NCBI GenBank assembly: GCA_017461985.1
Contig: JAFTSA010000009.1
Coordinates: forward strand, 1 to 64,000
DNA length: 64,000 bases
Direction of reading: 5' to 3'
From: Clostridia bacterium
GTDB lineage: Bacteria; Bacillota; Clostridia; Christensenellales; CAG-917
Part shown: positions 28,081 through 64,000 of the stretch, piece after piece
How the letters are laid out: every line of letters begins with the position of its first letter
How positions within the stretch are numbered: position 1 is the first letter of the stretch
The notes under the pieces: model-generated
Database searches by the model: none
The model's input: the letters and a program-made list of their open reading frames with translations, nothing else
What the model was told of the DNA's origin: nothing
Program-made: the position numbers and the translations under genes

Positions 28081-28093
28081 TGTGTGCCTCCTA

Positions 28094-29004: not shown

Positions 29005-29016
29005 ATCTACCTCCGA

Positions 29017-41651: not shown

Positions 41652-42695
41652 TTATTTATATACACTGAGGAGGAGCATAATGAGGGGAATTGTCAAAATT
41701 GACAGCAATGTGCTGAGGAGTATGCCGTTGGCAGAGGTCTTTTTGTCTCCGCCGTACAACTCGGCAAAGTTCAAGGTGTTGGTGGCACAAGGCATTGCGG
41801 ACATAATGACCAAAGTCACTTTGAGCATTCTGTCAAGTGGTATCGGCCACAAGATGAGGAAGACCAAAATGGGGAAAACAAGGAGTTTCACCCCAGAGGC
41901 AAGATAGTTGCGCCAGTCGGTGAAGAGAGATTTCAAGGGTTGTGCCCCAAATCGCATACCGAGGATTATCATGCACATAGGTGCGGTCATATCCCCAAAA
42001 TAGCCTATGATTTTCACCACTTCGGCGGGCATAGACTTCATGGTCACCCCTGCAAAGAAAAGAGGCAGTGCCACAAGAAGAGTCAGCGTAGGCGGATTGA
42101 TGAGGGCCTTTTTCACACTCATAAACTTTTTGTTGCCCGAAAGGACGTAGACGCCTATTGACCAGCCCATCATATTCATCGTGCAGACGTAGACTGCGGA
42201 ATACACAACCGCCTCAGGATTCAAGGGGAATAACAGGGTGAGAAGAGGCACGCCAAAGAAACCTACGTTGCCAAAGGTGGACAGGTTGACCATTGCCCTA
42301 TATGCCCTGCCCTTTGCGGTGTCAGTTATTTGCTTTTTGAGAAGAGGGTCTGTGGCGACTTTGTCACCGTCAAGATAACCCTCTTCCATAAGATGAGAGG
42401 TGATTTCAAGGTCGTTGAATTTTGACTTGAAAATTGCCCACAACACAAGGAATAACCCTAGTTGTGTGACAACGGAAAAAAGAAAAGTCCAACCCATGCC
42501 TGCAAGGATACGTGTGGAATACTCCACCTTCAAAAAGGATTGCAGTGACAAAAAGGGTTGGCAGACGTAAAGCAACACCGCAGAGAAAAACGGGATTGCC
42601 CCTGCCTTGATCAACTTAGTTTTGACAAGGAGAAATCCGGGTATTGCCAGTGCCACGAGGACGAGCACGTTGATCGCTGTTGTTTTGAAGTCCAT
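41652..42695 (-). CDS. AEC-family transporter
   Basis: A 347-residue membrane protein with about ten hydrophobic segments. The auxin efflux carrier family pattern is visible: GFLLVKTKLI near the start, the NVGFFGVPLL motif in the middle, and the LGMRF and LPCATN-like (MPCATNTLNFAELYGGD) motifs in the second half. In bacteria members export or import malate, lactate or other anions; substrate unknown. Its upstream region also carries the terminator-like hairpins of the giant gene. Confidence 0.88.
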   Translation of the reverse strand: MDFKTTAINVLVLVALAIPGFLLVKTKLIKAGAIPFFSAVLLYVCQPFLSLQSFLKVEYSTRILAGMGWTFLFSVVTQLGLFLVLWAIFKSKFNDLEITSHLMEEGYLDGDKVATDPLLKKQITDTAKGRAYRAMVNLSTFGNVGFFGVPLLTLLFPLNPEAVVYSAVYVCTMNMMGWSIGVYVLSGNKKFMSVKKALINPPTLTLLVALPLFFAGVTMKSMPAEVVKIIGYFGDMTAPMCMIILGMRFGAQPLKSLFTDWRNYLASGVKLLVFPILVFLILWPIPLDRMLKVTLVIMSAMPCATNTLNFAELYGGDKKTSANGILLSTLLSILTIPLIMLLLSVYK

Positions 42696-42883: not shown

Positions 42884-45800
42884 TTACACCGTGAAGGTTT
42901 GCACTGAGCCTGCGGTGCCTGCGGGCACTTCTTGTCCTCTTGCGATGACAACGATTGAGCCTGAAGTGACGTTTGCAGGTGCGGTTGTGGTGTCAAGGAG
43001 TGCTGAGGTGACGTCAACAACTGCTCCTACGTAAGGCACCAGATAGTACACTGTCTTTCTGCCACCAACGGATGCAAGGGTGTAGGTGCTTCTGTTGGAT
43101 GCGATTGTCACTGAGTATCTTGCAACTTCCGTTGTGCCGTCTGCGGCATAAGTGATTGCAATGCCTGACCATGCCACGCCAAGGCCGTTGTCCAGTCTTG
43201 TTCTCAAAGTGTTGCCACTATAGAGTGTTGTGCTGTCCTTGGTCTTTGCGTTGATCTTGACGGGGATTTGGATTCTTTCACCGGTGCCAAGTTGCATATT
43301 TGCATACAGTTCGGACACGGTTTCATTGCCTGCAAGGAGTGCTGCGGTGAGCTTGAAGTTTGCGGGCATTGTGACTGACACGTGGGCGAAGACCTTTGAG
43401 AACTTGTCGCCGTTTGCGTGCTTATCCCAACCAGTTCCGCCGTTTGCAGATGCAACGAATCCGGTGAGGTTTCCTTCTGCATCAACAACAGGGTTTTCAA
43501 CTGAGAAGGTTGCCTTGATGCCTTCGGGCACTGTGTAAGATGCTGCCACGCCTGCGTCGATATAGTAGTTGCCTGCCACACCGCCGGTGACGGTTGAGGT
43601 GTAAGGTGCAACGTCGTAGCGTGAGTTCTTGACCACAGGTGATGCCACTCTTTCTTCATCCATACGGTAGAGGGTTGTAATCTTTGTTGCAAGCACTCTT
43701 TGGACGAGGAAGGGGATTTGGAATTTTTGTGTACTGCCGTCAGGACCTGTCAGCAATGCGGTGAGATAGGTGATACCGCCGTTGTAGGTGGGACGGAAGT
43801 CGCCAGTTGACCAGCCGAGGGTGTAATCTTCGTCATCGGTGCGGAAGGTGATGACTTCGTTGCCGAGTGCGCCGTTGACGTTGACGGTGAGGTAATCAGG
43901 AAGCACCAGTGATGATGAGAAGTACTCATAGGGGTTGATGTAGGTTTGTGCTCCGCCGTCGTGTCTCAAGTAACCAACGTTTGAAATAAGTTCGGGGTTG
44001 CTTGATTCAACAACGCTGACTGCACTTCTGTTGACGATGACAAGTGTTGCACGAACTTCTTGCTCGTCAACGCCGTATTCACTGCCGTCAACCACTGCGG
44101 TGATGTTGTACGTTCCGCCTGCGTAGCCCAGGGTTGCGATGCCGAACTTCCAGCTGATGGGCAGATTGACTTCGGTGCCGTTTGCAAAGGTGAAGTTTGC
44201 GTATGCGGGGAAGTACTTGTAATGTCCGCTTTCAAGTTGTTCGAACACGTCTGTGACCACGAAAGGATCGAAGGTGAACACCAAGGTGTTGCCACCCACT
44301 GCCATATAGTCGCTGACTTGTTCAGGATCAACGAAGTCGCCTACGCCTGCATCAACCACGTGGTTTGCACTCATTGCCACTGCGGTGCCGTCGAGGACGA
44401 CCACGGGCACTCTCACTGTGGTGGTTGCATTGTTGACTGCGCTACCGTTGGTGAGAGTTGCATAGACGTATTCTTCTCCGCCCTTCACTGCGATTTCGGT
44501 GTCATAAGGATCCCATTCTGCATCCAGTTCTTGACTGACTGTGTAGACGAAGATGTAAGTTGTGTCGGCTGCGCCTTGTGCGGGGATGACGTTGTAGACC
44601 TTTGCGGCTGCGTCATACTCGAAGTAGGTCATTGTGCCTGTTCTGTTGCCTTCATTGTCGGTGACAACGTTGCCGTCAGCCACAGTGCCTTCACCGAGGA
44701 CTTTGTAGAGATATGCGCCTGTGCCTTCGTACTTGCTCATTCTGTAGCCGTCTTCAGCCATCTTGTTCCATTCTGCCACGGTGATGAACTTGCCATCGGG
44801 ATAGAAGGTGGTTGTGGGTGCATAGTTGTCCACGTTGTAGATGCTGTTGCCGCCGTCTGCTTTTGCATAGACTTCAAATGAGTCGTAGCGGAGGTCGTTG
44901 GACATTGTTTCTGATGCGATATTGCTGTTGAATCTTGTCACTTCGATCTTCTTGAAGGTGAAGGTGACGCCGAAGGAGAAGAGTTCAAATGCCATTTCGC
45001 TGTTGGGATACACGTGTGCCACTGCGTCAAACTCAACGGTGTCGGTGACGTCCATGCCGTCATTGATGTTTTCCACGCCTTCAAAGACCACGTAGTAGCG
45101 TTTGACTTCGCCAGTCTTTGCAAAGGTGACATCCATTTCGGTGGGCATTGCGCTCATACCAAATGAGAATGCGTTGTAGTAGATGACTTCTTCGGGGATG
45201 TTGTCTTCTGCGTCATAGACTACGTCGACGATTTCACCCTTTGTTGAGTCAAGTGAGGTGTATCTGATTGTGTAGGTGTTGCGTGCATCGCTGCGACCGA
45301 CCTTTGCGTAATCGGGAGCAACAAATTCTGCCTTTTCAACTTCTCTTGAGATGACCACGAGAGGAATGTTGACTTGTTGTGTTGCGCCTGTCTTATAGCG
45401 AATGTCGTCATAGGTTGCACCAAGTGCGTCTGCTTCATGAGCTGTGCCGTAGCGTGTCACTGTGATGCCGTCCACTTGATAGGTGTACCTGACGTATTCG
45501 CCGTCCTCTGCCACTGCGTATGCCTTGAAGGTGACCATATAGTCGCTGTCTTCATAGCCTTCTGCAGAGATGAGGCTGTCGCTAGGCCATTCGGGAACGA
45601 ATGTTGCCACTGAGCCGTCTGTGAGGATTGCTTCAATTTCAAGAGGCAATCCAAGTCCGCCTTCGCGGAAGGAATCATACAGATAAGGATCAACGGTGAT
45701 TGAGCGGTATGCGGGATCAACTGTCTTCAGGATTGTTCTGTCCTTCACAAGGCACTCGACGTCCATTGATTGTGAGCCACCGGGATAGGTGAAGGTGACT

Positions 45801-48800
45801 GCCAAGGTCAAGGTCTTGCCGAAGTACTTGGTTGTGTTGGTGAAGAAGTCTTCGGGGAGTTCATAGTTTGCAACCACTTCTGCTGTTTGCATTCTAGGTG
45901 TGCCGTCTTCTTCAGTGCCGTTGGTTGCAACGACTGTGTGGGTTGCACCTTGCTTGAAGAGGGTGGTGTCCATGCCGAGAGGATCGATGATGAACTCGCC
46001 CACGCCAGCGCCGTCTGCTGAAACGATTTCGGTTGCTTCAACTGTCAGTGCCACTCTTGTGGTAAGGTTGATGCCGTTTGCTTCGATGCGGACGTTGACT
46101 GTGCCGTCTCCGTTGAGTGCTGAGGTGATCTCGCCCTTGTTGTTGTAGGACACGTACCATCTCAAGGTTGCTTCGTATGATTCTGCAGTGTTGTCACTGT
46201 CAGGATAGACTGTTGCGGTGGTGGGAAGTCCGCTGTAGAACTTGTCTGCTGTCAATGCATATTCAAGTGCGCCTGCTTCGCCGAGGACGTCAACGCTGTA
46301 GCCGTAGACCACGGTGAAGGTGTATTCTGCGCTCATAAGGTTTGCACCGATATAGGCAGTTCTTGTGAAGGTGCCTGCTGCAACTTCTTGTGAGGTGGGT
46401 GCCCCTGCGCTCCAAACAACGGGAACGTTTGTCTTGGTTGCGGTTTCATCTGTGAACACCACTGTTGCGGTGGTGGGAAGTTCAAATGAACCGAATGCGT
46501 TGTAGACTGTTGACAAATCGTTGGGTGCGCTGTGTTCCACGTCCACGTTGGCTGCATTGTCAAGGATTGATTCACCGTTGTCGCCGACGAGGTAGATCTT
46601 GACGTCAAATGCACCGTTTGCGGGATATGCCACGTTGCCTTCGTTGTAGAACTTGACTTGGCGGATGACGTATGCTCCGTTTTCGTCTGTTCTGAACACC
46701 TTCTTGCCTTCTGCATTTGTGATGAAGTCCTCTGCGATGACACCGGGTGCGCTGTCGTCAACCCATTCTGCATTGACGTCTGCGATTGCACCACTGACGT
46801 GTTCACCCTTAACTGTCACCACTGTGGGCAGTGACCATGCATCGAAGACGTTGTATTCAAATGCGGTTGTTTCGCCGACAAAGTCAACGTCTGCTGAGAG
46901 TGCTCCGCCCACAAACTTGACTGCGCTGTCAGTTGAGAGAGTCAAGTTGGTGATTGCAAGTGAAGGTGTGTTGAGTTTGATTCTAAATTCTTGTGCGCCC
47001 ACTGTCACCTCGGCGTATCTGTCGCCACCAACTGCATTGACGTTGAATCCGTTGAGGTTCCATGCTCTGACAAATGCGATTTCGGTGTATTCGATTCCGT
47101 CTGTGGTGTAGGTGATTGCCACTGCCGTACCATTTCTATAGTCGCCCCAGTCGCCAACTCTGAAGTAGTTGTCGGGGTTCAAAGTATAGTCATAGCTTGA
47201 CAGGTTGTAGGTTGTGCCGTCAAGGACGTATTCTGCATAACCTGTTGCGGTGTAGTTGCTGAGGTCTTTCAGCATTGCATCGGTGATGACGGTGTTATCA
47301 TCAATTGCACCGCTTGTGTACACGTCTGTGTCATCGGTGTTTGCAAGGAACTTGACGCTGGTGATTGCCTTCTTGGGCACTGTGAGGCGGATCTTGATGA
47401 TTTGTGCTTGTCCGTCCAGTGAACCAAATGCCTTTCCGTCTGCACCAACAAGGACGTTGCCGTCTGCGTCACAGGGATTTGCTTCCACTGTTGCATACAC
47501 TGTGCCACCCTTGAAGATGTTGTCGATTTCCTTGGTGTAGGTTGCGTTTGAATAGTACTTGACGGTTGACCAATCAGGCTTCATGGTGTGGCTTGAAACG
47601 CCCTTTTCCTTGAAGTTGATTGTGAGGATGTTGTAGCTGTTTGACAGGTTGAACCATTCAGGATCAAGAGTGTGTTCACGTTCAACGTTGAGGCGGTAGA
47701 CGTTTGCGGTCATTGCTGACACGTTGATGGGCACGTAAACTGTTTGCTTGCCACTCTTTTCTGTGCCGATTTCAAGTTTTGCGTAGAGGTTCTTGCCATC
47801 ATATCCCATGTATGAGAATTCTGATTGCTTGACACCGCCTTCAACAAACTTGTAGTCGTTTGCTTCCCAGACGTAAGGTGCTGTGATGACCAGTGAGTTG
47901 CTGTCGAGGACGACTGCCTTGTCGTCACCTTCAAACATTGCCTTGACGTTGGTGGCAAATGATGCGCTGTCGATGACGTCGCTTGAATAGACGTCGAAGG
48001 TGAGGGCTTCGGTTTCAAGTGAGCTGAACACTCTGCCTGCAACCTTGACGGGCACTGAGATGACTTGTGCCACACTGCCGTCTGTTGCTGTTTCACCTGC
48101 GCCGGTGAATCCGTAGATGGGTGCGCCGGTTGCATCGTATCCTGCGATATAGCGGAAGACGTTTGCGCCAACCTTTGCGGTGACCACTACGTCAATGCCC
48201 TTGTAGTAGTCGTATCCAACCACTGTGTCGCCGTTCTTGACTGCGATTTCTGCAAGACGTTCTTCAAGTGCGGTGAGATCCCATTCAACTGAGAGGTCTG
48301 TGTATTGACCGCTGGTGTACTTGCCGTTGACGTAGGTGAATGTCTTGATGTATTCAGCAAGTGAGTTGTTGTATGCGCTGTTTGCAAGGACTGTGTTCAG
48401 GTTGCCGAATGCGTCGAATGCGTCGAAGGATGCAATCTTGTCGCTGTCAGTTGCGGTTGCCAGAGTCTTTGTTGCAAAGGATGAGATCTTTGCAGGGTTG
48501 ACTTCGTAGCCCTTCATGCTGACGGTGATGCTGTCTTCGTTTTCGTTGGTGAAGCCCCATTGATAGGTGAATCCAACTTCTACTGCGCCACCTGCCCAGT
48601 TGTAGGTGTAGTTGTCCCAATCAATCCAGCCCACGGGGAAGTTTCTGCCAACTGTTCCTGTGGGAAGTTTGCTGTAGTCCAGCACTGCGTATTCTGCTGT
48701 GCCAACCATTTCGGTGAGGACCTTGTAGTAGGTGTTGCCCTTCACTGCAGATGCTGCTGCCACGGGGATATAGTCTGTGCCAATCTTGGTGTAGAGACCA

Positions 48801-51800
48801 AACTTCAGTGTGCCTGCGTTGAAGGTGTCAACGTCAGCATCGTTTGCTACAACGTATTGTGCTGCTGCCTTGTAGGCGTATTCAAGTTTGTAGGTGTTGC
48901 CGTCGCCATTGGTAATTTGTGCGCCGGTTGCATCGGTGCCAAGGGTTGCCTTGCCCTTTGCAAATGCCATCAACTTGTTGCCACTTGCGTCTTCAAGGAC
49001 CGTACCGAAGGTGTATGTCTTCATGTTTTGGAACTTGATTCTCACAAGATCAGGCATTGAGACTTTATCTTCAGGGTTTACTGCCCTTTGATTTATTGAA
49101 ATCTTTTCTTGCTTGAAGTAACTACCGGTGTACTTATAGTAACTAGTCTCTTCATCAAGAACCGTTCCTTTAAAGAGAGTGTATTTTCCATCAGCATACG
49201 TATAGACTTCATCTCCAGCGGACCACTCATCCCTCTCTTCATCGGTCAAACGAGCATAATAGTATTGTTCATATGCAAAGACGTCGGTCAGTGCAAATGC
49301 GGTGGTTGTGTAGACGGGGATTGCATACATGACCTTGTTGAGCACGTAGCCATAGACGTAGCCTGCGAGATATTCGCCGTTGCTGTCAAGGCTTGCTGCT
49401 GAAAGGTCAACGGTTGATGCATCCCAGATGATCATTGTGCCGCCGTTGTAGTCCTTGTTGCCGGGTTCTTCGCTACCAACTGAATTAGAGCCGTCGAGCC
49501 AGGTTACCTTTGCTCTTTGAGGGAAGAATGCAGGATCTTCAAGATAGGTTTCGTTGAGGATGATGGGCTTGCCGTCTGCAGTTGCTTCTCTTGTTGCAAT
49601 GTCAGTGACGATGATGCTTTCAGGAGGTTCAGTTTGACCGAGGAGGTCAACGTATTCAACCTTTTCTGCTTCGAGGAAGCCAAGCATAGGTGAGTTGTTT
49701 GCGCCGTCGCCGTCATTGTCGTAAGGTCCGATACGGAGTGAGAGATAATCCCAACCATCGTTTGCGCCGCCGTGCACTGCGCTTTTAACAACTTCTTCAC
49801 CGTCTTCAACTCCAATAACGAGGAGTTCGTCAAATCCATCCAAGACTACACGCTCTGAGAGAGGAGCATACTTGTATTCACCACTGTCATTTGCGACATA
49901 TTGTCCTCCAACAAGGCTATAGCGTTGTCCTGAATATTGCTCGCCCGTTCCAATTGCAACATAGCCATATTCCAAAGTGCCTTGATAGGTCTTGCCAAGG
50001 TTGTTTGTGTCTTCTGCAATTGCGGTGTTGCGATAGGTGCTGATTTGTCTGCCGGCTTCGGTCTTGGTGCAGTTGACGTAGAGTTCAATTGCTTGGATAC
50101 CGCTGTACATCTTGTAGGTGCTGTCTGCACTGAAGCCGTAGTCTGTCTTGTTAGGATTGATGTCAAGATAGATGTTTGCAGTAGGATCAGGTGCGCCTGA
50201 GTGTGCGAAAGGCAGAGGCAGGATGCCTGCGATGAGCTTGGAGAGGTTTGCAACCGTACCACCGAAGAAGAGATTGACAAGTCCGCCCAGTTCGATGCCT
50301 GCAAGGCCTGTAACGACGTCGTTGATGAGCCAGCTATAGACGGTTGAAGGAATACTTCTCACAACAGGTTCAAGGAGGGTGATCTTTTGTTCAAGAGTCT
50401 TGCCGTCCAGTTGTTGGAAGAGTCTCTTGAGGTATCCTTCGTTGACGTCTCTTTCACCGAGGGTGTAGCTGCCCCATCTGACAGGATCAGCTTCAATGCC
50501 GTTTCCTCTTTCAGCGACCTTGTTGATGTCAACAAAGTAGCAAGTGTCGGATGATGCTGCATCGTCAATACCAGTCTCACTGAGGCCTGCCATTCCTGTT
50601 CTAAACAATCCAAGGATGGTTGTGTAGAGGAAGATGAGCAGTTCGTTGTAGGCATCTCTGCCAAGGGTGACCTTGATTGAGATGTATCTTGTGTCGTCTG
50701 CGGCTGAAGGATCAAGTGCGCCCATGTTTGCAAAGTAAGGCACATAGCCGTTGGAGTTGAACAGGTTGAGTTCAAGTTTCTTGATGAGTCCGTCCAGCTT
50801 GAGAGGATATGAGTATGTCCATGTGTCATCAGTTGAGCCGGTGTCGCCACTGCCGGAATCTCCACTGCCGCCGCCCGTTGAAGATGATTCATTTGCGGGA
50901 TAGGTGTAGGTTGCGTTGTCGCCGTCACCGTTCTTTGTGAGAGCGATGAAGTGTGAGCCGTCTGCGTTGGAGAGTGCGATACCGCCGATGGTGTTGTTGA
51001 CGAGGCCGTTCAAGGTGTCGTTGGAGACGTCAAGGTCGATGATGAACAAACTGTTGTTGTAGAAGTCAAGGCCAAGTTTGACTGCGCCACTACCCGAACT
51101 TCTGTTGGGATGGAACACTTGCAAGCTGAAGTGGATTCTGCTGTTGGGTGTGCCTGCGCGGTTATAGATGCCTCTTGTGCCTGTGAGTAATGCTCTTGTT
51201 GGCACGTTTTCAGTTTGAACTGCGCCGTTGGTTGCCGCTGCCAAGTTGCCCATTGATGCTGCCCAAACACGTCTGTCGATGGTGATTGACAGTGCGGGAT
51301 TCAATGAATCAATGATGTTTTGGATGAGGGCCATTGTGCCGGCAGTGCCTGACATTGTAAGACCTGCGTGACCTGTCTTGAATTGTCCGTAGAGTGCTTC
51401 GACGTCAAGGAGAGGCTCGTTGACTGAAACTTTCAGATTTGCAACTTCAAGAGCAAGTGCTGTGCCGTAGCTGTCAAGTGCTGCTTCCACTGCCAACTTC
51501 TTGAGACCTTCTCTAAGGTCGAAGTTGAGGCCGATGTTGATCTTTTCGAGAGGGAATCCGTCCAGGACGTCACCGAGGTTGAGTCCAAGGAGTCCCATAA
51601 GTGCGTTGATGAGTGCGCTGTCTGCGCTGATACCAATTCTGCCCTCTTCAAGTTCCACGTCAAGGGTGATGCCACTGCCTGCTGCAGATGAAGTTGCTTC
51701 ACCTGAGGCTGCTGCTTCGCTGCCATTTCCTTGAGGTTCTTGAGGATATGCAGGTTTTGCGCCGAGAAGGCCTGCAAGGCCGTGGAAGTTGATCTTGCCA

Positions 51801-54800: not shown

Positions 54801-57800
54801 ATGTCAAGGGTGAGACCGATGTTTGCTGAGAAGTTTGCGTTGTCCCAGTCTGTTGATGCCAAGATGAATTCGAAGTAATCGTACAGTTCGGTTGAAACAA
54901 ACTTGGTCATTTGTTCGGTCCAGTTGATGACGTCGCTGAGTTTAAGGTCGATGGCAAGTGACAGATCAAGTTCGACTGACTTGAGGTCACCAAGGAGACT
55001 TGCGATGTCAAGTTCTCCACCAGCAAGGAGTGCACCAAGGTCAAGGTTCATGATGGTGCTGTAGTTGGTGAAGTCGTTTACTGCCTTATAGTAGGTTTCG
55101 CCATGGACGAGGCCTTTTGCAACGCCGTTTGCGTCGTACTCTACTTCTACGTATCTGCCATTCAACTCATTGTATTCGTAGAGTGAGCCACTTTCGTTTT
55201 TATTCCATGCAGGTGCATAGTATTTTTCAATGTCTGCAAATGCCTTGTAGAAGTCGATGAACTTTCTGTCAAGTGATGTCACCTTTGTGGACACTGCAAC
55301 GTGAGTGAATTCTGTGTCTTCGTCAACGCAGACTGCATTGCCATCTTTGATGATATATCTCTTTGCAGGTTCAACAAATTCAGTGGTTTCACTGTTGAGA
55401 ACATTGTCAACCGTGTAAGGTGTGCCGGAATTGTTGTTGCTGTTGAGCATATCAATGTAGTTTTGGACGGTGATGACGGTGTTGAACACGCTGTCGTCCT
55501 TCACTGCCATGAAGACGTCTTCTGCCTTTTCGTATGCCCAAACGCCAGATGCCACTGCATTTTCAAATGCGGTTGCGTTCAAGTACACTTCGGTTGCCTT
55601 GACGTAGTATTTGCTGTAGGTGTGGAATACACCGTTGCCTGTGTCAACTGCGTCTTCGGGACGGACTGCGCGAAGTGCTCTGTAGGTTCCTTTTTCATCT
55701 CTGCAATATGTTCCCTCTTCTTCATCGTATGAATAGCGATATCCTTCATACAGAAGTTTGCAATTGAACACATCGCCCAAGTCATCGTCATCTTCTTTTT
55801 TTGCTTCAAACACAAATGCATAACGTGTGCCAGCATACTCTTCTTCAGCAATTACATACTGACCTTCACCGACTTGCTTGTATTCGCCGTCTGCGTTTTC
55901 AACATAATCAATTGAATACAGTTGTCCCTTGTAGTTGAGTCTGTAGTCTCCTTCTGCACTCTTGTGATATGTTTCACCACTCAGTGAGTAGCGTTGTCCG
56001 GTGTAGCTTTCCTTTTCCTTTTCGCTGAGTTTAAGGAAATCTTCGTCGCCAAGAACTGCGAAGTCATGTTCTTGAATTTTGATGTATTCAACATCTCCCA
56101 CTGCGTTGCCAACCTTGACGTATGCATCTTCAAATGCCACGTCGTCGTTGCGGACGAAGTTGCCGTAGTAGAAGATGTGGTTGTCTGCAAGGTCAGGATT
56201 GACGATGACGCTGTTCTTGTATGAAGTGTTGAGGGTGTTGAAGTCCTCAATTGTGCCGAAGTCGATTGCTGAACTGTCTTCTGTGCCGTTGAAAAGCTCA
56301 AGGTCAAGGCCGATGGACAGGACGCCCTTTGTGCCGTCGCTGTTGAAGAGGTCGATGTCAAGACCGATTGCGTAAGGATTGAGGCCGATGCCAACCTTCA
56401 CTGCAAAGTTGGGAAGGAGACCTTCGGAGATGTCAACGTTGAGAAGTTGCAAGAGCAATTCCACAAAGCCCTTTGTGACTGCAAGAGCAAGTTTTCTTGT
56501 GAAGAAGTTGAGATAGACCCCTGCCACTGAAGGATCGGAGTATTCATCAACTGCTCCGCCTGCTGCCATTGCTTCACTTGAGCCAAGGCTGAGACCGCCT
56601 GAGAGCAGGTCTGCAAGGAGGGTTTCAACGGGATAATCACTGACGTCAACAGCAAGCTTACCGCCCTTGCCAAGGAGCCATTCAAGGTCAAGGTAGAGGC
56701 CAGCAGCACCGGTGTCGATGTCGTGATCATAGTAGATGCCGATCATGTGGGTGAGAGTGCCGTCAACTTGGTCTGCGCCGTCGTTTTCTCTACGCCACAA
56801 GTCAATGCCCAGGTCAAGGTCAAAGATGTTGATCTTGAGTGCGGGAACAAAGTCGATTCTAAATGAAAGGTTGATCTTGATTTCAAAGACAAGTTCGCCG
56901 GTGAAACCTTCGAGGACTCTGATCATTGAGTTGTCCAGGTCGCCAACAATACCGCCGAGGACGTTGCCAAGTGATTCTTCAACGCCGGTTGAGTACAACA
57001 CGTATTCACCGTTGTTGAATTGTTGATATTCACCTTGGATCATTGTGTAGCGGATTGAAGGATCGATGTCACCTTCGGTGAGTTTGTCTGCCTCTGCCTT
57101 GCCTGTGTTGACAAGTGCAAGGTAGTCACTGACCAACATATAGTCGTGGTAGCCACTAATTGAGAAACCGCCACGGATGGTCAATGAGATGAAGAACATA
57201 TCGTCACTGTCAACGTAGTTGATCTCTTCGCTGTTGTCGTAGAGAGCAAGGTGTTGAATCATATCGTCCATTTCATCGGTCTTTTGTTCCCATTGTTCTG
57301 CGGTGTAGTAGGTTGCAAGATATTCAGCAACAGGCATATAACTTCTTGTCCAGCTGTCGTATGCGAAGTAGTTGATTTCGTTTGCGCCCCAACCGATGAG
57401 CTTGTTTGCATCGTACAATTCTTTGACCTTGCCGTCTTCTGCGGTGAGAGAACTGCCAAGGACAAATTCGTTCTTGTTCCAGTTCCAGACGTATTCACCC
57501 TCGTTGCTTTCAACGGTGGAGATTTGCATGATGCGCTCTGCTCTTGAAACGATGTTTTCAACTGTTGTACGTTGATAATAGACTGTGCCTTCGGGTTCTG
57601 TGCCGTCTGCTCTCACGTAGCTGTCACGATACCAGACTTGCTTGTAAAGTGTTGCAGGAAGCACTCTCTCGAAGCGGTCAATGTCAAGTGATTCAATGTG
57701 AATTTTGACGTAGAAGTCACGGACTTCGGAGGTGAAGTCAACCATTTGTCCGTTTTCCCAGTCAACGGTGTCGTACACGTCATATGCGAGCGCGTACCCG

Positions 57801-60800
57801 CCATCCTTAATAACATAGAGGCTGTCGCTGTCGATTGCGTAGTAGTCGCCGTGATAGTAGATATAGCGGACGTTGTCGTCGTAGTTTGCAACCACGTCAA
57901 TGCCGTCTAATGTTGTGCCTGCCACGCTGTCCTTGACAATCCACTCGTCAACGGTGTTTTCGCCACCGACGAAGGTGTAGACGTAGTCGGGTGCAAGATA
58001 GTATTTTGCGCCGTCGGGAGTATTTTCATCTGCGGGGACGTAGTTGAAGCTTTCGCCACCAAATTCGGGGAAGCCGACGTTGATGCCGATTTCATATTCC
58101 CACAGATAGAGTTGGACTGAAACGATGGGCTTTCTTGCATAGTCGTCTGCGTATGCAACAAGCATCTTGCTCTCGTCAATTGCTGTGAAGAGGAAGTATT
58201 CGTTGTCTGCGCTTTCGTCGCCTTCTGCAAGTTGATATTGTCCGTCACTGACGTAGTAGTATGCGCCTTCGTAGTTGGTTGTTTCGGTCTTAGAGTAGTA
58301 TTTGAAGTTGTCTCCTGACTTCTCTGCTCTGTCCTTTTCAATTGCAGTTGCTCTTGAAAGTTCTTGGAAGTAATGACTGTCTGAGGTCAAAACCTTCAAG
58401 TATGAGTCGTAAGACTTGATTGCGTAGAAGTCGCCGGTGTATTTGCCAAGTTCAGCATCGCTCATGTCTGCCACTGCCTTGTAGACGCCGTCAACAAGTG
58501 CGTAGTTGCCCTTTTCTGCGGTTTCGTCAACGTAGAAGCGGACGTCACTGTCGCATTCAAGAGCGGTGTTGACGCTTTCATAGTAGTAGACTGATCTGTC
58601 GGTGTTGATTTGGACGTAAGGTTGTTTTGTGAAGTCTGCTTCATTAAATTGCAGTCTGCTGTCTGCGTCAGGCATGACGAGGGCAAGAATTTCGTTGATG
58701 AAATTGCTGTTGACTGCCACTTGGATGAAGGTTGAGGTCATACGGATGCCCCAAACGAATGCGGTGATATACTGAGCAATGTCGTCACCAAGGAGAGGAA
58801 GTGCTGCTGCATCTGCACTGCCTGCTGCCACTGCTGAATCGCTTGCGCTTTCACTGCTGCCGAAGATGTCGGGGAGGAGATTTGATGCCAGGCTACGGAG
58901 TGAGTAGCTGTTGATGTACACACTGGGGATGTTGAGATAGCTCAAATCAATGTACAATCCGCCCTTGACACGTTTGTGGTCTCCGTTGTCGTTTTGATAG
59001 AAATAGGTTGCGTCATAAGCATAACGTGTCATACCCACTGATTCGTCGCCTTCGGGGTCGTAGACGAACTTGCCGGTGCTTGCGTTGTAATAGTAGTCAC
59101 CGCGGACGTCTTCGAAGTAATGGCTGTAGCGATATTCAGGAGCAACGTATGCCACGTTGCCGGGTTTCATTTCAGTGGCGGGGTCCAACTTTTCAAACTC
59201 ACCACTTTCCATATAGATGCCAATGATGTTGTGGGTGTCGGAAACGGTGTATTTTTCGTTTTCGTCAACAACAACTTGGTCTGCTGTGGTTTGGATGACG
59301 ATTGATGCGTTGATGTAGGAGAGCAAGTCGCCAATGTTCAGTCCGCCGATGTTGCCAACTGCCCCAACGATGATATTGACGATGTCAAGGATTGACATAT
59401 CTGCATTGACGTCAATGTCAAGATCGGGCACGTATTGACGCAGGTGGTTGAGGAGTGCTGCAAACTTGATTTCAACTGTAAGGATGAGTTCAATCTTGCG
59501 TGCAACGTCACCACCCATATCGGATGTTGCGCTGATGATTGCTTCCATATCCTCGGGATCCATTTCGGGGAAGAGCCAGCCGAGGAGTGCGCTGAGGTCG
59601 ATGTCACTGCCGTGGACGAATCTTGTTGTGATGTCGATTGCTTCTGTCAAGGTGATACGGTCAAGTTCAGTGATTTCGGTGTATTCCTTGAGGTCGTCTG
59701 CAGTGAGGTGATATTCGTGTTGTGAGGTGAATTGAATGTCAACGTTTCTGATTGCAACCAAGAGGTTGAGGTCAGTGTCGTATTCATTCATATTGCCTGC
59801 ATTGTCTGCTTCACGTCTGAAGAACTTGGTGTTTTCGGGCTCTGTTCCAGTTGCTTTCACGCGGACGTATGCAACAGCGGGGGTTGCAGTGTCGGGGGTG
59901 ATTGCCTTATAGGAGCCGTCCTTTTCAACGTAAAGTTGTTGTCCTTGATGCTCTGCGTTGTCTTTGTCGTAAGAAACAAAGTAGTAGTCGCCTTCAACAA
60001 GGACAGTGCCGTCGGTGTCAACCACTTCAACGGTGGGTGCGCCTTCAACGGGGATATAACGGCTGCCTTCCATCATAAGGTTGACGTTGACGTCAAGGTT
60101 AAGTGAATCGTTGAAGTCAAGTTCAACTTGTGCTGATGCAAGGAGCTTGTCTGTGATGTAGTCATCAAGGTCAAGACCTGATGCAATCATCTCAATGAGA
60201 GTGCGGATGAGCTTGTTGCCAAGAGCAACCGTCAACTTACGTCTGCTGATGAGGAGGAGTGCATCTGCGTTGTCAGTGTCAATGGGTGATGCTGCCATTG
60301 CTTCACTTGATGCGCCGGGCAATTCGTTTTCGGTGTAGATTTCTTCATTGAGAATATCACCGAGCAAATTGTCGATGAAGTCTGTGATGATGGTTGATGT
60401 GATGCTGAGCTTGGGAATGTTGAAGAAAGGTGCATCAAGGTAGAACGTTCCGCCAAGATAGTAGAGGCCGAGCCACAGGTTTTCTGCACCGGTTTCTGCG
60501 ATGTTGATGAGTTCAACTGCGATTTCACTGTTGGTCAACTCTGCAAAGTCAAGGACTATGCTGAGGTCAAGACGGAAGTGTGCAGATGAATATCCCTTTG
60601 CGGTTGCAGGCATTTCAAGGAGAACACCTTGCAAGTTGCCAAGGACCTTTTCAAAGATTGTGCCCAGGTCGATTTGACCTTCGGTGATGCCGAGGTCGAT
60701 CTCAACTGATGCGTTAACTGACACAGTTGATTCATAGAAGTAGGTGGTGGGGATTGTCTTTTCGGGATCGTCCTTGTCCTTTTCTTCAAGGATATAGTCG

Positions 60801-63800
60801 GGGATCAAAGGCTCGCTGTTGCCGCCGATTTCAATGTCAAGACCGCCAAGACCGATGCCAATCTTCACTGCGTTGACTTGGATGCCGATTTGGAGGGCAA
60901 AGTCTTTCAGTTCGGTGAATGCATTGATATAGCGATAGTATTGACCTTCTGCGTCAACCACGTAGCCTTGATAACGATCTGCAAAGCCGTCCACTGGCAC
61001 AAATGCGCCACTACGACGGATGAAGTAGCCAACCAAGCCAAATGCGTAGCCTTCTTCAAGTGATTCTTCGGGGACTACTGCGTAGTCGCCGTCGATATGA
61101 GTGTAGAGTGCATATCTATCTGTGTCGAAGTATTCATATTGAGGCACGCCGTCTTCTTCGCCCACTTGAACCTTTGCATATCTGCCGTCCACGTTGTTGT
61201 CTTTCCAAGTGATTTCGTCATAGTATGCATATCTTTCGTTCAAGGGCAGGACGAGGGTGTAGATGGTCTTTTCAGTCTTTTCTTCGCCTACGAGGATTGT
61301 CTTTGCCTTGTAGTATGCGTCGGCACTGACTTGTGAGGGGCTGAAGGTGACGTCAAATCTTTCTGCACCTGCGGGCACTGCCACGCCGTCGGTTATGTAG
61401 AGATAATAATCTCTGCCGTTGACGGTTTGCTTGTAATAGTCACCGCTTGCGTTTGCGCTGACTGATTCAACGAAGTATCTTGTGCCAGAGTAGATATCGT
61501 TGAGGACTTCAAGTTCATCAACTTCGTCGCCGTCATCGAAGAATCTGTTGTAGCCGTAGCTGCCGATTTCTGCGCCCACTGAAATTTCAAGTTTGTTGAA
61601 GATTTCCTCAATTGAGCCAAGGTCGGGGAGAAGTGCGCCGATGATGAGTGAAATGATTGACTTGGTGATGAGGATTTGTCCTGCTGTGTCTGAAAGGACA
61701 AGTGCGATGATTGCATCTCTTTCAACGTCTGCTTCAACCTCTGCAGATGCCATTGCTTCGCCGTCCCCTGCTGAAGTTGCGGTTGCGCTAGTGCCGTCAC
61801 CGAAGATGAGGCCCATGAGCATATCAACGAAGTTAGGAATCTTTGTGTAGTTGGATGCAACGTCAAAGAGGCTTGTGCCGTCAAGATACAAGTCACCTTG
61901 ATAGAGATAGATTCCGCCCAGTGCCATATAGTCACCGTTTGCATCCTTGAGAGGTGTGCCCTTTTCGTCTGTCTTGAGGAGTTCAAGAGCAAGTTCGATT
62001 GTGTCAAGGTCACTGCCAGTGATGAAGTTGGTGATTGCACTGATTTGTTCATAGACGGTGCCGTTGCCTTCCACGTATGCTACGTGTGTTGCGTCCGCGC
62101 TGTCGTATTGCACGTATGCGCCGTCCATATAGAGATAGACGGGTGTGCCTGCGGAGATTGCTTCTTTTGCTGCTGCAAGGCCAAGTGCGTTGTATTGATC
62201 GCCCTTGAGGAGTGCTGCAATGTTAAGTGCGCCAAGGTCTGCCTTCAATGAAATTCTGCCTGCGATGCCGTCATGGAATGCGCTGGTTGTCTTTGCATTG
62301 ATAAGCATATCTGCGATGTAGTTTTCAAGGAGTCCGCCAAGTTCCAGAGTGTCGATGTCTTCACTGTCGAAGTTGATCATCAGGTTGAGGCCCAAACCTA
62401 TGGTTTGTGTGCCGGGATTTTCAACGGGAGGATACTTGTCGGGGTCAACGATTGAGAGGATTGTGTTGACGTATGATGAGATGTCAACAAATTCATTTCT
62501 GTCAAGAGGTGACAGGACGCTTTCATATTCTGCATCTGCAATCTTGAGGTCAAGACCAAGACCAAGCTTGAGATAGATGTTTGTGCCTGCAACTGTGTTG
62601 AAGTTGATGCCAAGTGACAGTTTGTTGTCCATATCTGCATCCTTAAACTTGATGGAGATACCGCTTGTGCTCTCTTCAATGTTGAACATGTCAAGGCGGA
62701 GTTCTTCACCAGTGATAAGGCTTGCGATGTCGGCAATAAGGGTTGAGTTGACGAGGACGTCAATTCCGTCCCAGTTGTCATACCAGAAGGTGTCACCTTC
62801 TTCGTAGGGGTTGCCACTCATGCCCATTGCGGTGCATCTAAAGATGATGCGCTTGATGAACTTGTTGAGATAGTCGATGACGCCGGGTGCTTCTTCGTCG
62901 TCTGCGGTTGCTGCTGCTTCACCGCCGCCGAAGACACCGAGATCTTTAAGAAGTCCAAGGAGGTCAAGTTTCACTTGAGGGCCACCGAAGTTGCCTGCAT
63001 CAAGGTATGCAAAGCCGTCAATCATGTAGATGCCAAGTGCTGCTTCGTTAAATTCTCCTCTGTTGAAGATGATTTCAACACCAACTTCAAGGGCTGCGAG
63101 GATTGTTTCAATTTCGAAGTTCAGTGCATCAAGGTTCAGGTTGAAGACGCCTGCAATGCCAAGTTTGCCAAGGTCAAGACTGCCGAATACACGGAGAACG
63201 ATATTGTCTTGGACGGGGTCATTGAGGTACATTTCAAGGCCAAGTCTGTCAAGGAGTGCACCCACAAGATTCTTGGCAAGGCCTTCTTCAAGACCGCCAA
63301 GGAGATTCTTCACTGCGTCCATGCTGACGATTGTATCAATGATATCACCAAAGACGTGAGGATCTTTGATGTAAAGACCGTTGGGATCTTGTGCGTATCT
63401 GCCGTCAGATTCACGGAGTGAATATCTTTCGTCGTCGTTGTAAAGTTTTGCTGTGTCTTCGTCAACGAGGATATAGGTTGCATTGAAACCGAATTGAAGT
63501 TCCAGTTCAAGTTCAAAGCTCAACTTCTCGTTGTCTGCGAAGTTGTTGAAGCGGTTGACACCATTTTCTGTGCCAAGATATCTGTAATATGCTGTGCCGT
63601 CGTCAACAAGTGCGCCAGTGAAGCGGACAAAGTTGTCGCCTTCCTTCACGTAGATGTTGTCAACTTCTGCATTGACTGTTGCATATTCGCTTGATTCAAC
63701 TACAACGTAGTTGTTTTCGTTTTGATAGTGATAGATGCCTTCGTCAAGTCTTGCGGACACTGAGTCAAGTCTTGTTGCTGAAATCTTGGGTGACTTGAGG

Positions 63801-64000
63801 TAGATGCCTGCGCTGAGGATGTCGCTGATGAGGTCAACTGAAATTGCAACGTTTTCAAAGTCAATGTCAACGGTGAGTTCAAGACCGAGGTCAGGAAGTT
63901 TCTTGATTGATTCTGAGATGTCAAGACCGCTGTCCCCTGTTGAGAGCATATCCACAACAAATGCGATGATGCCCACAAGGGTTTGTTGTGCGATTGAAAG
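42884..64000 (-). CDS. Giant modular repeat protein (5' end outside the window)
   Basis: An open frame without any stop for at least 7,038 codons, running off the right edge; the true start, and any signal peptide, are not visible. I do not recognise the protein. Residues up to about 4,200 hold eight related modules: beta-rich strands, a G-x-LYLD strand, a Ser/Ala/Glu/Gly linker, then a hydrophobic segment such as LINALMGLLGL before a Leu/Pro turn. Tyr-rich hairpin-like repeats (YxGxRYSxxxxxYVxDxxGxYK) separate many modules. A Gly/Ser linker follows at about 50.83-50.89 kb. Residues ~4,700-7,030 are Ig-like beta repeats of about 90-110 residues (DPY..., LP..., W pattern). Cysteine is rare and acidic residues are frequent, as in secreted surface proteins. 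No LPxTG, SLH or membrane segment at the C-terminus. Confidence 0.85.
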   Translation of the reverse strand, partial: LSIAQQTLVGIIAFVVDMLSTGDSGLDISESIKKLPDLGLELTVDIDFENVAISVDLISDILSAGIYLKSPKISATRLDSVSARLDEGIYHYQNENNYVVVESSEYATVNAEVDNIYVKEGDNFVRFTGALVDDGTAYYRYLGTENGVNRFNNFADNEKLSFELELELQFGFNATYILVDEDTAKLYNDDERYSLRESDGRYAQDPNGLYIKDPHVFGDIIDTIVSMDAVKNLLGGLEEGLAKNLVGALLDRLGLEMYLNDPVQDNIVLRVFGSLDLGKLGIAGVFNLNLDALNFEIETILAALEVGVEIIFNRGEFNEAALGIYMIDGFAYLDAGNFGGPQVKLDLLGLLKDLGVFGGGEAAATADDEEAPGVIDYLNKFIKRIIFRCTAMGMSGNPYEEGDTFWYDNWDGIDVLVNSTLIADIASLITGEELRLDMFNIEESTSGISIKFKDADMDNKLSLGINFNTVAGTNIYLKLGLGLDLKIADAEYESVLSPLDRNEFVDISSYVNTILSIVDPDKYPPVENPGTQTIGLGLNLMINFDSEDIDTLELGGLLENYIADMLINAKTTSAFHDGIAGRISLKADLGALNIAALLKGDQYNALGLAAAKEAISAGTPVYLYMDGAYVQYDSADATHVAYVEGNGTVYEQISAITNFITGSDLDTIELALELLKTDEKGTPLKDANGDYMALGGIYLYQGDLYLDGTSLFDVASNYTKIPNFVDMLMGLIFGDGTSATATSAGDGEAMASAEVEADVERDAIIALVLSDTAGQILITKSIISLIIGALLPDLGSIEEIFNKLEISVGAEIGSYGYNRFFDDGDEVDELEVLNDIYSGTRYFVESVSANASGDYYKQTVNGRDYYLYITDGVAVPAGAERFDVTFSPSQVSADAYYKAKTILVGEEKTEKTIYTLVLPLNERYAYYDEITWKDNNVDGRYAKVQVGEEDGVPQYEYFDTDRYALYTHIDGDYAVVPEESLEEGYAFGLVGYFIRRSGAFVPVDGFADRYQGYVVDAEGQYYRYINAFTELKDFALQIGIQVNAVKIGIGLGGLDIEIGGNSEPLIPDYILEEKDKDDPEKTIPTTYFYESTVSVNASVEIDLGITEGQIDLGTIFEKVLGNLQGVLLEMPATAKGYSSAHFRLDLSIVLDFAELTNSEIAVELINIAETGAENLWLGLYYLGGTFYLDAPFFNIPKLSITSTIITDFIDNLLGDILNEEIYTENELPGASSEAMAASPIDTDNADALLLISRRKLTVALGNKLIRTLIEMIASGLDLDDYITDKLLASAQVELDFNDSLNLDVNVNLMMEGSRYIPVEGAPTVEVVDTDGTVLVEGDYYFVSYDKDNAEHQGQQLYVEKDGSYKAITPDTATPAVAYVRVKATGTEPENTKFFRREADNAGNMNEYDTDLNLLVAIRNVDIQFTSQHEYHLTADDLKEYTEITELDRITLTEAIDITTRFVHGSDIDLSALLGWLFPEMDPEDMEAIISATSDMGGDVARKIELILTVEIKFAALLNHLRQYVPDLDIDVNADMSILDIVNIIVGAVGNIGGLNIGDLLSYINASIVIQTTADQVVVDENEKYTVSDTHNIIGIYMESGEFEKLDPATEMKPGNVAYVAPEYRYSHYFEDVRGDYYYNASTGKFVYDPEGDESVGMTRYAYDATYFYQNDNGDHKRVKGGLYIDLSYLNIPSVYINSYSLRSLASNLLPDIFGSSESASDSAVAAGSADAAALPLLGDDIAQYITAFVWGIRMTSTFIQVAVNSNFINEILALVMPDADSRLQFNEADFTKQPYVQINTDRSVYYYESVNTALECDSDVRFYVDETAEKGNYALVDGVYKAVADMSDAELGKYTGDFYAIKSYDSYLKVLTSDSHYFQELSRATAIEKDRAEKSGDNFKYYSKTETTNYEGAYYYVSDGQYQLAEGDESADNEYFLFTAIDESKMLVAYADDYARKPIVSVQLYLWEYEIGINVGFPEFGGESFNYVPADENTPDGAKYYLAPDYVYTFVGGENTVDEWIVKDSVAGTTLDGIDVVANYDDNVRYIYYHGDYYAIDSDSLYVIKDGGYALAYDVYDTVDWENGQMVDFTSEVRDFYVKIHIESLDIDRFERVLPATLYKQVWYRDSYVRADGTEPEGTVYYQRTTVENIVSRAERIMQISTVESNEGEYVWNWNKNEFVLGSSLTAEDGKVKELYDANKLIGWGANEINYFAYDSWTRSYMPVAEYLATYYTAEQWEQKTDEMDDMIQHLALYDNSEEINYVDSDDMFFISLTIRGGFSISGYHDYMLVSDYLALVNTGKAEADKLTEGDIDPSIRYTMIQGEYQQFNNGEYVLYSTGVEESLGNVLGGIVGDLDNSMIRVLEGFTGELVFEIKINLSFRIDFVPALKINIFDLDLGIDLWRRENDGADQVDGTLTHMIGIYYDHDIDTGAAGLYLDLEWLLGKGGKLAVDVSDYPVETLLADLLSGGLSLGSSEAMAAGGAVDEYSDPSVAGVYLNFFTRKLALAVTKGFVELLLQLLNVDISEGLLPNFAVKVGIGLNPYAIGLDIDLFNSDGTKGVLSIGLDLELFNGTEDSSAIDFGTIEDFNTLNTSYKNSVIVNPDLADNHIFYYGNFVRNDDVAFEDAYVKVGNAVGDVEYIKIQEHDFAVLGDEDFLKLSEKEKESYTGQRYSLSGETYHKSAEGDYRLNYKGQLYSIDYVENADGEYKQVGEGQYVIAEEEYAGTRYAFVFEAKKEDDDDLGDVFNCKLLYEGYRYSYDEEEGTYCRDEKGTYRALRAVRPEDAVDTGNGVFHTYSKYYVKATEVYLNATAFENAVASGVWAYEKAEDVFMAVKDDSVFNTVITVQNYIDMLNSNNNSGTPYTVDNVLNSETTEFVEPAKRYIIKDGNAVCVDEDTEFTHVAVSTKVTSLDRKFIDFYKAFADIEKYYAPAWNKNESGSLYEYNELNGRYVEVEYDANGVAKGLVHGETYYKAVNDFTNYSTIMNLDLGALLAGGELDIASLLGDLKSVELDLSLAIDLKLSDVINWTEQMTKFVSTELYDYFEFILASTDWDNANFSANIGLTLDIKAKLNIQNLLGLITGGGNIMDALKGLEAYIKIGYNTNYHNENAAIELWVNIDNDGKLNLYLNLEDMDEIVGMGDFFTKVKFEGLDLGGLLGGGEAEASAETLGTELSVETNNVSTGLLPENIFDIINIILGQVLFGHDIIAVGLNDKLLVDLVKMLAPDFEGADYLPMLNVTEGADTSGVVINIGGGAPSIGVNLGFVVGYESYAEATEYANYDGVKFSLVDDKYVVDAAGTYVMVSSDKYALVDYANPVWTGDRYELNADGVTFTKVFSAYSEAEVGYTGTRYSLVNGQYVIDADGTLKKNANTFTLNGAGEGGFVKLNAEDLTDGKLTRYAAIGTDGGRYLPVDGYKKLSGKGVASSRETYDVTTAGDYLLIGDFSFGISIYGLGIFANGEHLSNAQADGSQIDKDGKNVVDYADITKTSLNLSLAMDINYYGSADTTNDNNIVDMSELLGLILGLVNPDSDMTGSTLRLNIMNNMGNSEYPSGQIKLSAYLNLNDFAATEIALEIFQYDDNGVLIEDDPILGAYLAHDNVYIDASHLLGETAKLYLSGLGLSKILEDVLGSIFGGGEEDGEAVAATSGNAGGLTIHDWAFIQAMIRPQYFSLTLSVATINAIINKVYEAQGKELGNLIPNLGEVMLDAYGYAPVNGVDERPYWMSINVKMTEGFYGSIDITEIGLDLHKQAGFGAANLYEVFNAGNAKHVEMGNKYVNMSAEEAAAYEGTKYVSNGNGTYTESALGTYRYEGTRYTKIEEGYALAEAGYDGQRYSKVGEDYVTDEDGDYKYVEEQYVLDRNGNYIITYGEAYNIATGEIGIGTIGAALDISLTISSAGITKYDAAGNLNEEYGSTFVGWVENLLVGLLGGTSLLGEFKEIGANEDYDGQRYSFTNNTYVKDDNGNYKFVMADVILTLPQKAITLDISVKADINLPAIIKYGLSGILYSDLALDIRIGEILDTSFLAVYWLGSARLVNKGNIYELAVADPAESIFADSLYVDASGLGLGKINFHGLAGLLGAKPAYPQEPQGNGSEAAASGEATSSAAGSGITLDVELEEGRIGISADSALINALMGLLGLNLGDVLDGFPLEKINIGLNFDLREGLKKLAVEAALDSYGTALALEVANLKVSVNEPLLDVEALYGQFKTGHAGLTMSGTAGTMALIQNIIDSLNPALSITIDRRVWAASMGNLAAATNGAVQTENVPTRALLTGTRGIYNRAGTPNSRIHFSLQVFHPNRSSGSGAVKLGLDFYNNSLFIIDLDVSNDTLNGLVNNTIGGIALSNADGSHFIALTKNGDGDNATYTYPANESSSTGGGSGDSGSGDTGSTDDTWTYSYPLKLDGLIKKLELNLFNSNGYVPYFANMGALDPSAADDTRYISIKVTLGRDAYNELLIFLYTTILGLFRTGMAGLSETGIDDAASSDTCYFVDINKVAERGNGIEADPVRWGSYTLGERDVNEGYLKRLFQQLDGKTLEQKITLLEPVVRSIPSTVYSWLINDVVTGLAGIELGGLVNLFFGGTVANLSKLIAGILPLPFAHSGAPDPTANIYLDINPNKTDYGFSADSTYKMYSGIQAIELYVNCTKTEAGRQISTYRNTAIAEDTNNLGKTYQGTLEYGYVAIGTGEQYSGQRYSLVGGQYVANDSGEYKYAPLSERVVLDGFDELLVIGVEDGEEVVKSAVHGGANDGWDYLSLRIGPYDNDGDGANNSPMLGFLEAEKVEYVDLLGQTEPPESIIVTDIATREATADGKPIILNETYLEDPAFFPQRAKVTWLDGSNSVGSEEPGNKDYNGGTMIIWDASTVDLSAASLDSNGEYLAGYVYGYVLNKVMYAIPVYTTTAFALTDVFAYEQYYYARLTDEERDEWSAGDEVYTYADGKYTLFKGTVLDEETSYYKYTGSYFKQEKISINQRAVNPEDKVSMPDLVRIKFQNMKTYTFGTVLEDASGNKLMAFAKGKATLGTDATGAQITNGDGNTYKLEYAYKAAAQYVVANDADVDTFNAGTLKFGLYTKIGTDYIPVAAASAVKGNTYYKVLTEMVGTAEYAVLDYSKLPTGTVGRNFPVGWIDWDNYTYNWAGGAVEVGFTYQWGFTNENEDSITVSMKGYEVNPAKISSFATKTLATATDSDKIASFDAFDAFGNLNTVLANSAYNNSLAEYIKTFTYVNGKYTSGQYTDLSVEWDLTALEERLAEIAVKNGDTVVGYDYYKGIDVVVTAKVGANVFRYIAGYDATGAPIYGFTGAGETATDGSVAQVISVPVKVAGRVFSSLETEALTFDVYSSDVIDSASFATNVKAMFEGDDKAVVLDSNSLVITAPYVWEANDYKFVEGGVKQSEFSYMGYDGKNLYAKLEIGTEKSGKQTVYVPINVSAMTANVYRLNVEREHTLDPEWFNLSNSYNILTINFKEKGVSSHTMKPDWSTVKYYSNATYTKEIDNIFKGGTVYATVEANPCDADGNVLVGADGKAFGSLDGQAQIIKIRLTVPKKAITSVKFLANTDDTDVYTSGAIDDNTVITDAMLKDLSNYTATGYAEYVLDGTTYNLSSYDYTLNPDNYFRVGDWGDYRNGTAVAITYTTDGIEYTEIAFVRAWNLNGFNVNAVGGDRYAEVTVGAQEFRIKLNTPSLAITNLTLSTDSAVKFVGGALSADVDFVGETTAFEYNVFDAWSLPTVVTVKGEHVSGAIADVNAEWVDDSAPGVIAEDFITNAEGKKVFRTDENGAYVIRQVKFYNEGNVAYPANGAFDVKIYLVGDNGESILDNAANVDVEHSAPNDLSTVYNAFGSFELPTTATVVFTDETATKTNVPVVWSAGAPTSQEVAAGTFTRTAYIGANLMSAEYTFTVVYGYSVDVLGEAGALEYALTADKFYSGLPTTATVYPDSDNTAESYEATLRWYVSYNNKGEITSALNGDGTVNVRIEANGINLTTRVALTVEATEIVSADGAGVGEFIIDPLGMDTTLFKQGATHTVVATNGTEEDGTPRMQTAEVVANYELPEDFFTNTTKYFGKTLTLAVTFTYPGGSQSMDVECLVKDRTILKTVDPAYRSITVDPYLYDSFREGGLGLPLEIEAILTDGSVATFVPEWPSDSLISAEGYEDSDYMVTFKAYAVAEDGEYVRYTYQVDGITVTRYGTAHEADALGATYDDIRYKTGATQQVNIPLVVISREVEKAEFVAPDYAKVGRSDARNTYTIRYTSLDSTKGEIVDVVYDAEDNIPEEVIYYNAFSFGMSAMPTEMDVTFAKTGEVKRYYVVFEGVENINDGMDVTDTVEFDAVAHVYPNSEMAFELFSFGVTFTFKKIEVTRFNSNIASETMSNDLRYDSFEVYAKADGGNSIYNVDNYAPTTTFYPDGKFITVAEWNKMAEDGYRMSKYEGTGAYLYKVLGEGTVADGNVVTDNEGNRTGTMTYFEYDAAAKVYNVIPAQGAADTTYIFVYTVSQELDAEWDPYDTEIAVKGGEEYVYATLTNGSAVNNATTTVRVPVVVLDGTAVAMSANHVVDAGVGDFVDPEQVSDYMAVGGNTLVFTFDPFVVTDVFEQLESGHYKYFPAYANFTFANGTEVNLPISWKFGIATLGYAGGTYNITAVVDGSEYGVDEQEVRATLVIVNRSAVSVVESSNPELISNVGYLRHDGGAQTYINPYEYFSSSLVLPDYLTVNVNGALGNEVITFRTDDEDYTLGWSTGDFRPTYNGGITYLTALLTGPDGSTQKFQIPFLVQRVLATKITTLYRMDEERVASPVVKNSRYDVAPYTSTVTGGVAGNYYIDAGVAASYTVPEGIKATFSVENPVVDAEGNLTGFVASANGGTGWDKHANGDKFSKVFAHVSVTMPANFKLTAALLAGNETVSELYANMQLGTGERIQIPVKINAKTKDSTTLYSGNTLRTRLDNGLGVAWSGIAITYAADGTTEVARYSVTIASNRSTYTLASVGGRKTVYYLVPYVGAVVDVTSALLDTTTAPANVTSGSIVVIARGQEVPAGTAGSVQTFTV
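50824..50895 (-). other. Gly/Ser/Thr-rich linker in the giant protein
   Basis: Encodes a low-complexity run (STGGGSGDSGSGDTGSTDD) of about 22 residues that marks the boundary between the module region and the segment leading to the Ig-like C-terminal array. Likely a flexible hinge. Confidence 0.75.
51665..62935 (-). repeat. Eight Ser/Ala/Glu/Gly linkers marking modules of the giant protein
   Basis: Short linkers with the theme GGGEA-x-A or SSEAMAA occur at about 62.89-62.94, 61.74-61.80, 60.26-60.33, 58.80-58.87, 56.52-56.59, 54.48-54.55, 53.04-53.11 and 51.67-51.74 kb. Spacing is about 1.1, 1.5, 1.5, 2.3, 2.0, 1.4 and 1.4 kb. Each follows a LYLD/LYID-type strand and precedes a hydrophobic LI..LL-type segment, so they mark equivalent points in successive modules. 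Sequence between copies is strongly diverged. Confidence 0.75.

Follow-up and report, generated by a model that had tools for sequence, protein, structure and literature searches.

The closest described systems are very large surface proteins of other bacteria. Giant1-5 of Apilactobacillus kunkeei, whose Gram-positive genome has ~1.5 Mb, are extracellular proteins of 3,000-8,000 aa with predicted N-terminal beta-solenoids; they are encoded in a five-gene cluster and their proposed role is cell interaction (PMC12863079). Giant genes of Omnitrophota and Planctomycetota encode huge surface proteins (>5,000 aa, extracellular and built of repeats), described in a study whose main text mentions neither Clostridia, nor Bacillota, nor lipoproteins (PMC11573180). 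The protein analysed here, hereafter the giant, resembles Giant1-5 in being a huge, predicted extracellular protein of a similarly small Gram-positive genome, but it is encoded by one gene, has a putative lipid anchor and contains 14 copies of another domain. It is also like the huge proteins of the second group in size, predicted location and repeat construction; unlike theirs, its domain lies outside Pfam and NCBIfam.

The window—the whole stretch of 64,000 nucleotides that was analysed—forms the first 64 kb of a contig of 88,485 bp; the genome has 1.41 Mb and is 98.5% complete. The original prediction, made from the window's letters, described an uninterrupted frame of more than 7,000 codons encoding an acidic, cysteine-poor protein of more than 700 kDa even without its N-terminus. 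We find 7,038 open codons in the window, in a frame that runs off its edge:

42884-64000, minus strand: part of the giant gene within the window, codons 1916-8953 plus stop, open frame

When the rest of the contig was added, the extension to the right that had been proposed, the frame ran on to just upstream of contig position 69763. Its best-fitting start, outside the window, is an ATG at contig position 69745 behind an AGGAGG, and the extension also gave a lipoprotein signal peptide and the upstream neighbours. The whole gene (contig 69745 to 42884, minus strand) encodes 8,953 aa, with a mass of 973 kDa and a pI of 4.16, and the composition is as anticipated (13 cysteines in 8,953 residues, or 0.15%; 15.2% Asp plus Glu; 6.0% Tyr). 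It is preceded by a promoter, TTGACA-N17-TAAAAT (11/12 consensus positions), and by the Shine-Dalgarno sequence AGGAGG; many relatives of the giant have a similar TTGACA/TATAAT-like promoter. The 5' leader (~60 nt; contig 69745-69836) contains a block like GTATAWTARTCT that is common to several genera, and a short hairpin shared across genera adjoins the Shine-Dalgarno site. RNAalifold gives this hairpin four pairs, in which the changes are mostly one-sided.

Profile-profile comparison and an iterated HMM revealed 14 tandem copies of one beta-rich domain between aa 44 and 6098, most of them with E between 1e-17 and 1e-58, and thereby bore out the view of the protein as repetitive, beta-rich and modular. 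The repeat domain has a size of ~230-300 aa and occurs as two alternating subtypes, A and B, plus distinct end domains. The following features of the giant lie in the window (E-values of repeat domains are those of the iterated HMM):

63821-64000, minus strand: 3' part of repeat domain 6 (type A; whole domain aa 1741-1975), E 1.9e-33
62516-63553, minus strand: repeat domain 7 (type B), aa 2065-2410, E 2.0e-23
61541-62428, minus strand: repeat domain 8 (type A), aa 2440-2735, E 1.4e-35
60755-61540, minus strand: Tyr-rich linker, aa 2736-2997, 10.3% Tyr
60047-60754, minus strand: repeat domain 9 (type A), aa 2998-3233, E 1.1e-58, the AlphaFold target
58538-59689, minus strand: repeat domain 10 (type B), aa 3353-3736, E 2.7e-34
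57212-58537, minus strand: Tyr-rich linker, aa 3737-4178, 11.5% Tyr, middling occupancy among relatives
56330-57211, minus strand: repeat domain 11 (type A), aa 4179-4472, E 2e-29
54998-56329, minus strand: Tyr-rich linker, aa 4473-4916, with Y-x-G-x-R-Y motifs, largely missing in other genera
54179-54997, minus strand: repeat domain 12 (type B), aa 4917-5189, E 1.4e-24
53564-54178, minus strand: Tyr-rich linker, aa 5190-5394
52847-53563, minus strand: repeat domain 13 (type A), aa 5395-5633, E 7.8e-35
52379-52846, minus strand: Tyr-rich linker, aa 5634-5789, 12.8% Tyr
51452-52378, minus strand: repeat domain 14 (end domain, grouping with domain 2 in the tree), aa 5790-6098, E 9e-23
49766-51355, minus strand: junction region, aa 6131-6660, conserved, without match
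42887-49765, minus strand: C-terminal tail, aa 6661-8953 (~2,300 aa), with a Big_4 match and internal repeats, no evident anchor
46352-46489, minus strand: Big_4 (bacterial Ig-like), aa 7753-7798, PF07532, E 1.6e-4, 21.5 bits against a cut-off of 22.1

The Tyr-rich repeats noticed at the outset are present, but they are not the main module. Tyrosine makes up 8.9% of the linkers versus 3.9% of the domains, Y-x-G-x-R-Y motifs occur in the linkers, and in an alignment of 22 giants the beta-rich blocks are conserved and the Tyr-rich stretches between them are poorly occupied. The latter are lineage-variable linkers between domain copies. The Ig-like tail is upheld by the borderline Big_4 match and the internal repeats, and Big_4 reaches 34.2 bits in a 1,954-aa relative; the likeness to this family is limited to the tail and does not concern the 14-copy domain. 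The statement that the protein matches no nameable family thus holds, apart from this borderline match in the tail. No Pfam family matched the repeat domain (100 domain sequences, 25 families listed) and it is absent from NCBIfam; giants of this kind are therefore probably annotated as hypothetical. Sequence searches of the PDB gave nothing significant, the N-terminal third had no Pfam match above the cut-off, and no adhesin family matched the giant. A phage origin of the repeat domain was rejected, as none of 50,697 phage records matched it. In the open literature, we found no description of this protein in Christensenellales, probably the order concerned here.

The N-terminus (MKKLRIALLIVLVLSLVTCLFAC-SN) is a type II signal peptide with the lipobox LFAC, and a lipobox is found in 21/21 giant relatives compared. 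The genome encodes the lipoprotein signal peptidase LspA (PF01252, E 6.6e-33). By its Sec/SPII signal, the giant is a predicted lipid-anchored surface protein, which agrees with the earlier expectation of a secreted protein tethered by its N-terminus. Its C-terminus (...VPAGTAGSVQTFTV), read directly, has no LPXTG, TM helix or basic tail, in line with the missing C-terminal anchor noted in the original prediction and in contrast with sortase-anchored giant adhesins, which carry all three. Because LspA is present and no Omp85 was detected in the genome, while 7 control genomes were positive in the same search, the host is likely a monoderm. The lipid anchor of monoderm lipoproteins sits in the outer face of their only membrane, so the lipid of the giant would be placed there too.

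Matches to the giant were found in 32 of the 43 genomes of the family, collinear, free of stops and with about 28-63% identity. Open frames in the family reach 10,465 aa, the shorter ones being often at contig ends, and complete giants among the 21 relatives compared have 7,256-10,433 aa. The named relatives are MAGs that represent uncultured Clostridia and come mostly from the guts of animals; the sources include sheep colon, water buffalo rumen and the chicken 'Candidatus Limadaptatus', and also 'Christensenella sp. UBA1262'. The dN/dS (NG86) is 0.24 against a same-genus relative and 0.20 between two other giants (G039 and G041). These ratios indicate that the gene is under purifying selection, as the intact frame had suggested. 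One might still suspect an artefact of assembly or gene calling, or a repeat in decay, since repeats are known to cause misassembly and the genome is probably a MAG like those of the named relatives. We consider this highly improbable. The domain copies are only distantly related, which makes repeat collapse unlikely because they are too diverged for it; the gene has no internal stops; and independent gut assemblies (sheep, buffalo, chicken and others) contain collinear genes that agree with it in size and domain plan, so that the artefact named in the original prediction as its possible refutation is not borne out. The lipobox and size kept family-wide, together with a dN/dS of ~0.2, argue for a conserved gene. 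As judged from these comparisons, the giants are a real, previously unnamed family of predicted surface proteins under selection.

The arrays have a regular history within the family. Each of the eight giants examined, from six genera, has exactly 14 domains, and at 14/14 positions the nearest relative of a domain is the one at the same position in the other giants. In the domain tree, type B gathers positions 3, 5, 7, 10 and 12 (support 0.95), type A gathers positions 4, 6, 8, 9, 11 and 13 (support 0.88), and domain 2 groups with domain 14; in 8/8 giants the succession of types from position 3 to 13 is B A B A B A A B A B A. Two other families of the order have arrays in which about 13 and 20 copies were detected at the cut-off used, and the 20-copy arrays of two genera match one to one, first copy excepted. 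Relatives in other families of the order reach up to 13,589 aa. Across families, only the end domains have clear counterparts and interior copies group largely by family, with a weak between-family placement of these copies (several tree supports below 0.8). Since the ends are shared and the interiors group largely by family, the interior copies seem to have been amplified separately in each family and then frozen. Family f5 encodes several proteins of 1,700-3,400 aa with the repeat domain per genome (G241, G298, G315), and one of its genomes (G046) has a 7,109-aa protein with the domain; these may represent stages in the growth of arrays. Across the order, the repeat domain occurs in 80 of 329 good genomes sampled, and it was found in none of ~370 sampled members of the class outside the family, at the threshold used and with a narrower profile.

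Structure prediction of single modules, also proposed earlier, was done for domain 9. AlphaFold (100 domain rows) gave a beta-rich model with a mean pLDDT of 75, and 88-96 in much of the core, consisting of ten or eleven beta strands, three main helices and a disordered Ala/Glu/Ser loop. A two-domain model with linker had a pLDDT of 59 and a pTM of 0.41 and does not predict an extended shape. About 11 strands and 3 main helices fit the LolA fold, whose members are mostly single-domain carriers and often lack sequence similarity to each other; the fold is an antiparallel, curved sheet of some 11 strands under a lid of helices. With VIA-align, many rows with Z 5-7 for the two-domain model are LolA-fold proteins without shared sequence, namely RseB (Z 6.9), LolA (6.8), EPD-BCP1 (6.8), VioE (6.1), LprG (5.9), LppX (5.4) and LolB (5.3), and the single-domain model matched LolB (6.3), LolA (5.3) and RseB (4.8). 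LolA, LolB, RseB, LprG, LppX and VioE belong to one fold superfamily, most characterised members of which bind lipids (PMC6363788), and LprG and LppX are lipoproteins, as predicted for the giant. The array might then be a string of LolA/LppX-like clam domains, each binding lipid, lipoprotein or another hydrophobic ligand in a groove, with the protein storing or moving such molecules at the surface, which we regard as unlikely. The LolA-fold Z values are all below 8 (4.7-6.9 over the two models), with rmsd mostly of 5-10 Å, and porins and OspA score as high. Foldseek found no match at E≤0.001 for either model; its matches to the two-domain model were rejected as MHC-like noise. Sequence similarity to the clam-fold proteins was not detected: hhalign of the repeat domain against DUF6612, which we take to be LolA-like, was not significant (E 0.06-0.36, probability below 1%), and Pfam listed 25 families for the 100 domains, none of them a LolA/LppX model. 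The overall fold is possibly that of the LolA/LppX/LprG/RseB lipoproteins (CATH 2.50.20), but the match is weak, and we treat this hint from the models as a lead, not as a result. The narrower version, in which the 14 domains form a chain of LolA-like hydrophobic-ligand pockets on the lipid anchor and store or relay lipids or lipoproteins, is a little less probable still. If true, it would be a megadalton-scale lipid or lipoprotein device on a single-membrane bacterium, with a pocket number fixed separately in each family.

Neighbourhood comparison identified two conserved genes downstream of the giant, where a zinc-ribbon protein gene is also found:

41652-42695, minus strand: Mem_trans (AEC-type) transporter
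40468-41589, minus strand: SPFH/Band 7 protein with zinc ribbons

The genes that lie upstream on its strand encode a GH20 hexosaminidase, a protein of 285 aa that matches no Pfam family and often a PIG-L deacetylase. One or more of these lie directly upstream in several genera of the family, and in family f24 the GH20, 285-aa and PIG-L genes and a ROK kinase gene adjoin the giant too. This association might suggest that the giant binds GlcNAc-containing host or microbial glycans, which the products of the adjacent GH20, PIG-L and ROK genes process inside the cell. We find such glycan capture doubtful: the giant has its own promoter, with the ATG about 700 bp past the upstream gene, Pfam found no carbohydrate-binding domain in it, and genus g3 keeps the giant with a GH127-like gene and others upstream instead. 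The neighbouring glycan genes do not prove a glycan role because their products are apparently cytoplasmic and they are missing in g3.

Other loci were noted in passing. One f24 giant (G255) is adjoined by a lipoprotein with Big_2 and transglutaminase-like domains (983 aa) and by a protein of at least 1,159 aa that combines an M6 peptidase with RCC1 repeats and Big_2. Another contig (C9, 134119-144729) encodes a second large surface protein of 3,537 aa with a likely signal, a C-terminal membrane anchor and a Pro-rich tail; it was rejected as a relative of the giant, to which it has only a weak Tyr-rich match. Genes of ribosomal proteins L3, L4 and L2 in the window (27253-29646) look like the start of an S10 operon.

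The reading that we favour, by a modest degree over even chances, is that the giant is a rod or chain which is tethered by its lipid and makes contact through an Ig-like tip. A diacylated N-terminal cysteine would fix it to the single membrane at the outer face, the array of domains would form a long rod or chain crossing the cell wall, and the Ig-like tail would be the outer tip, contacting host mucus, glycans or neighbouring cells in adhesion or docking. The number of repeats would set the reach of the giant, which could explain why each family has a fixed repeat number and unchanged ends.

A single gene takes up about 1.9% of a 1.4-Mb genome, and a fixed plan of 14 domains in 7-10 kilo-residues is kept across the family. 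The apparently separate amplification, with copy numbers that differ between families, makes selection for array length directly testable. The carriers are uncultured gut Clostridia, and the giant is a strong candidate for their contact with the host and the community.
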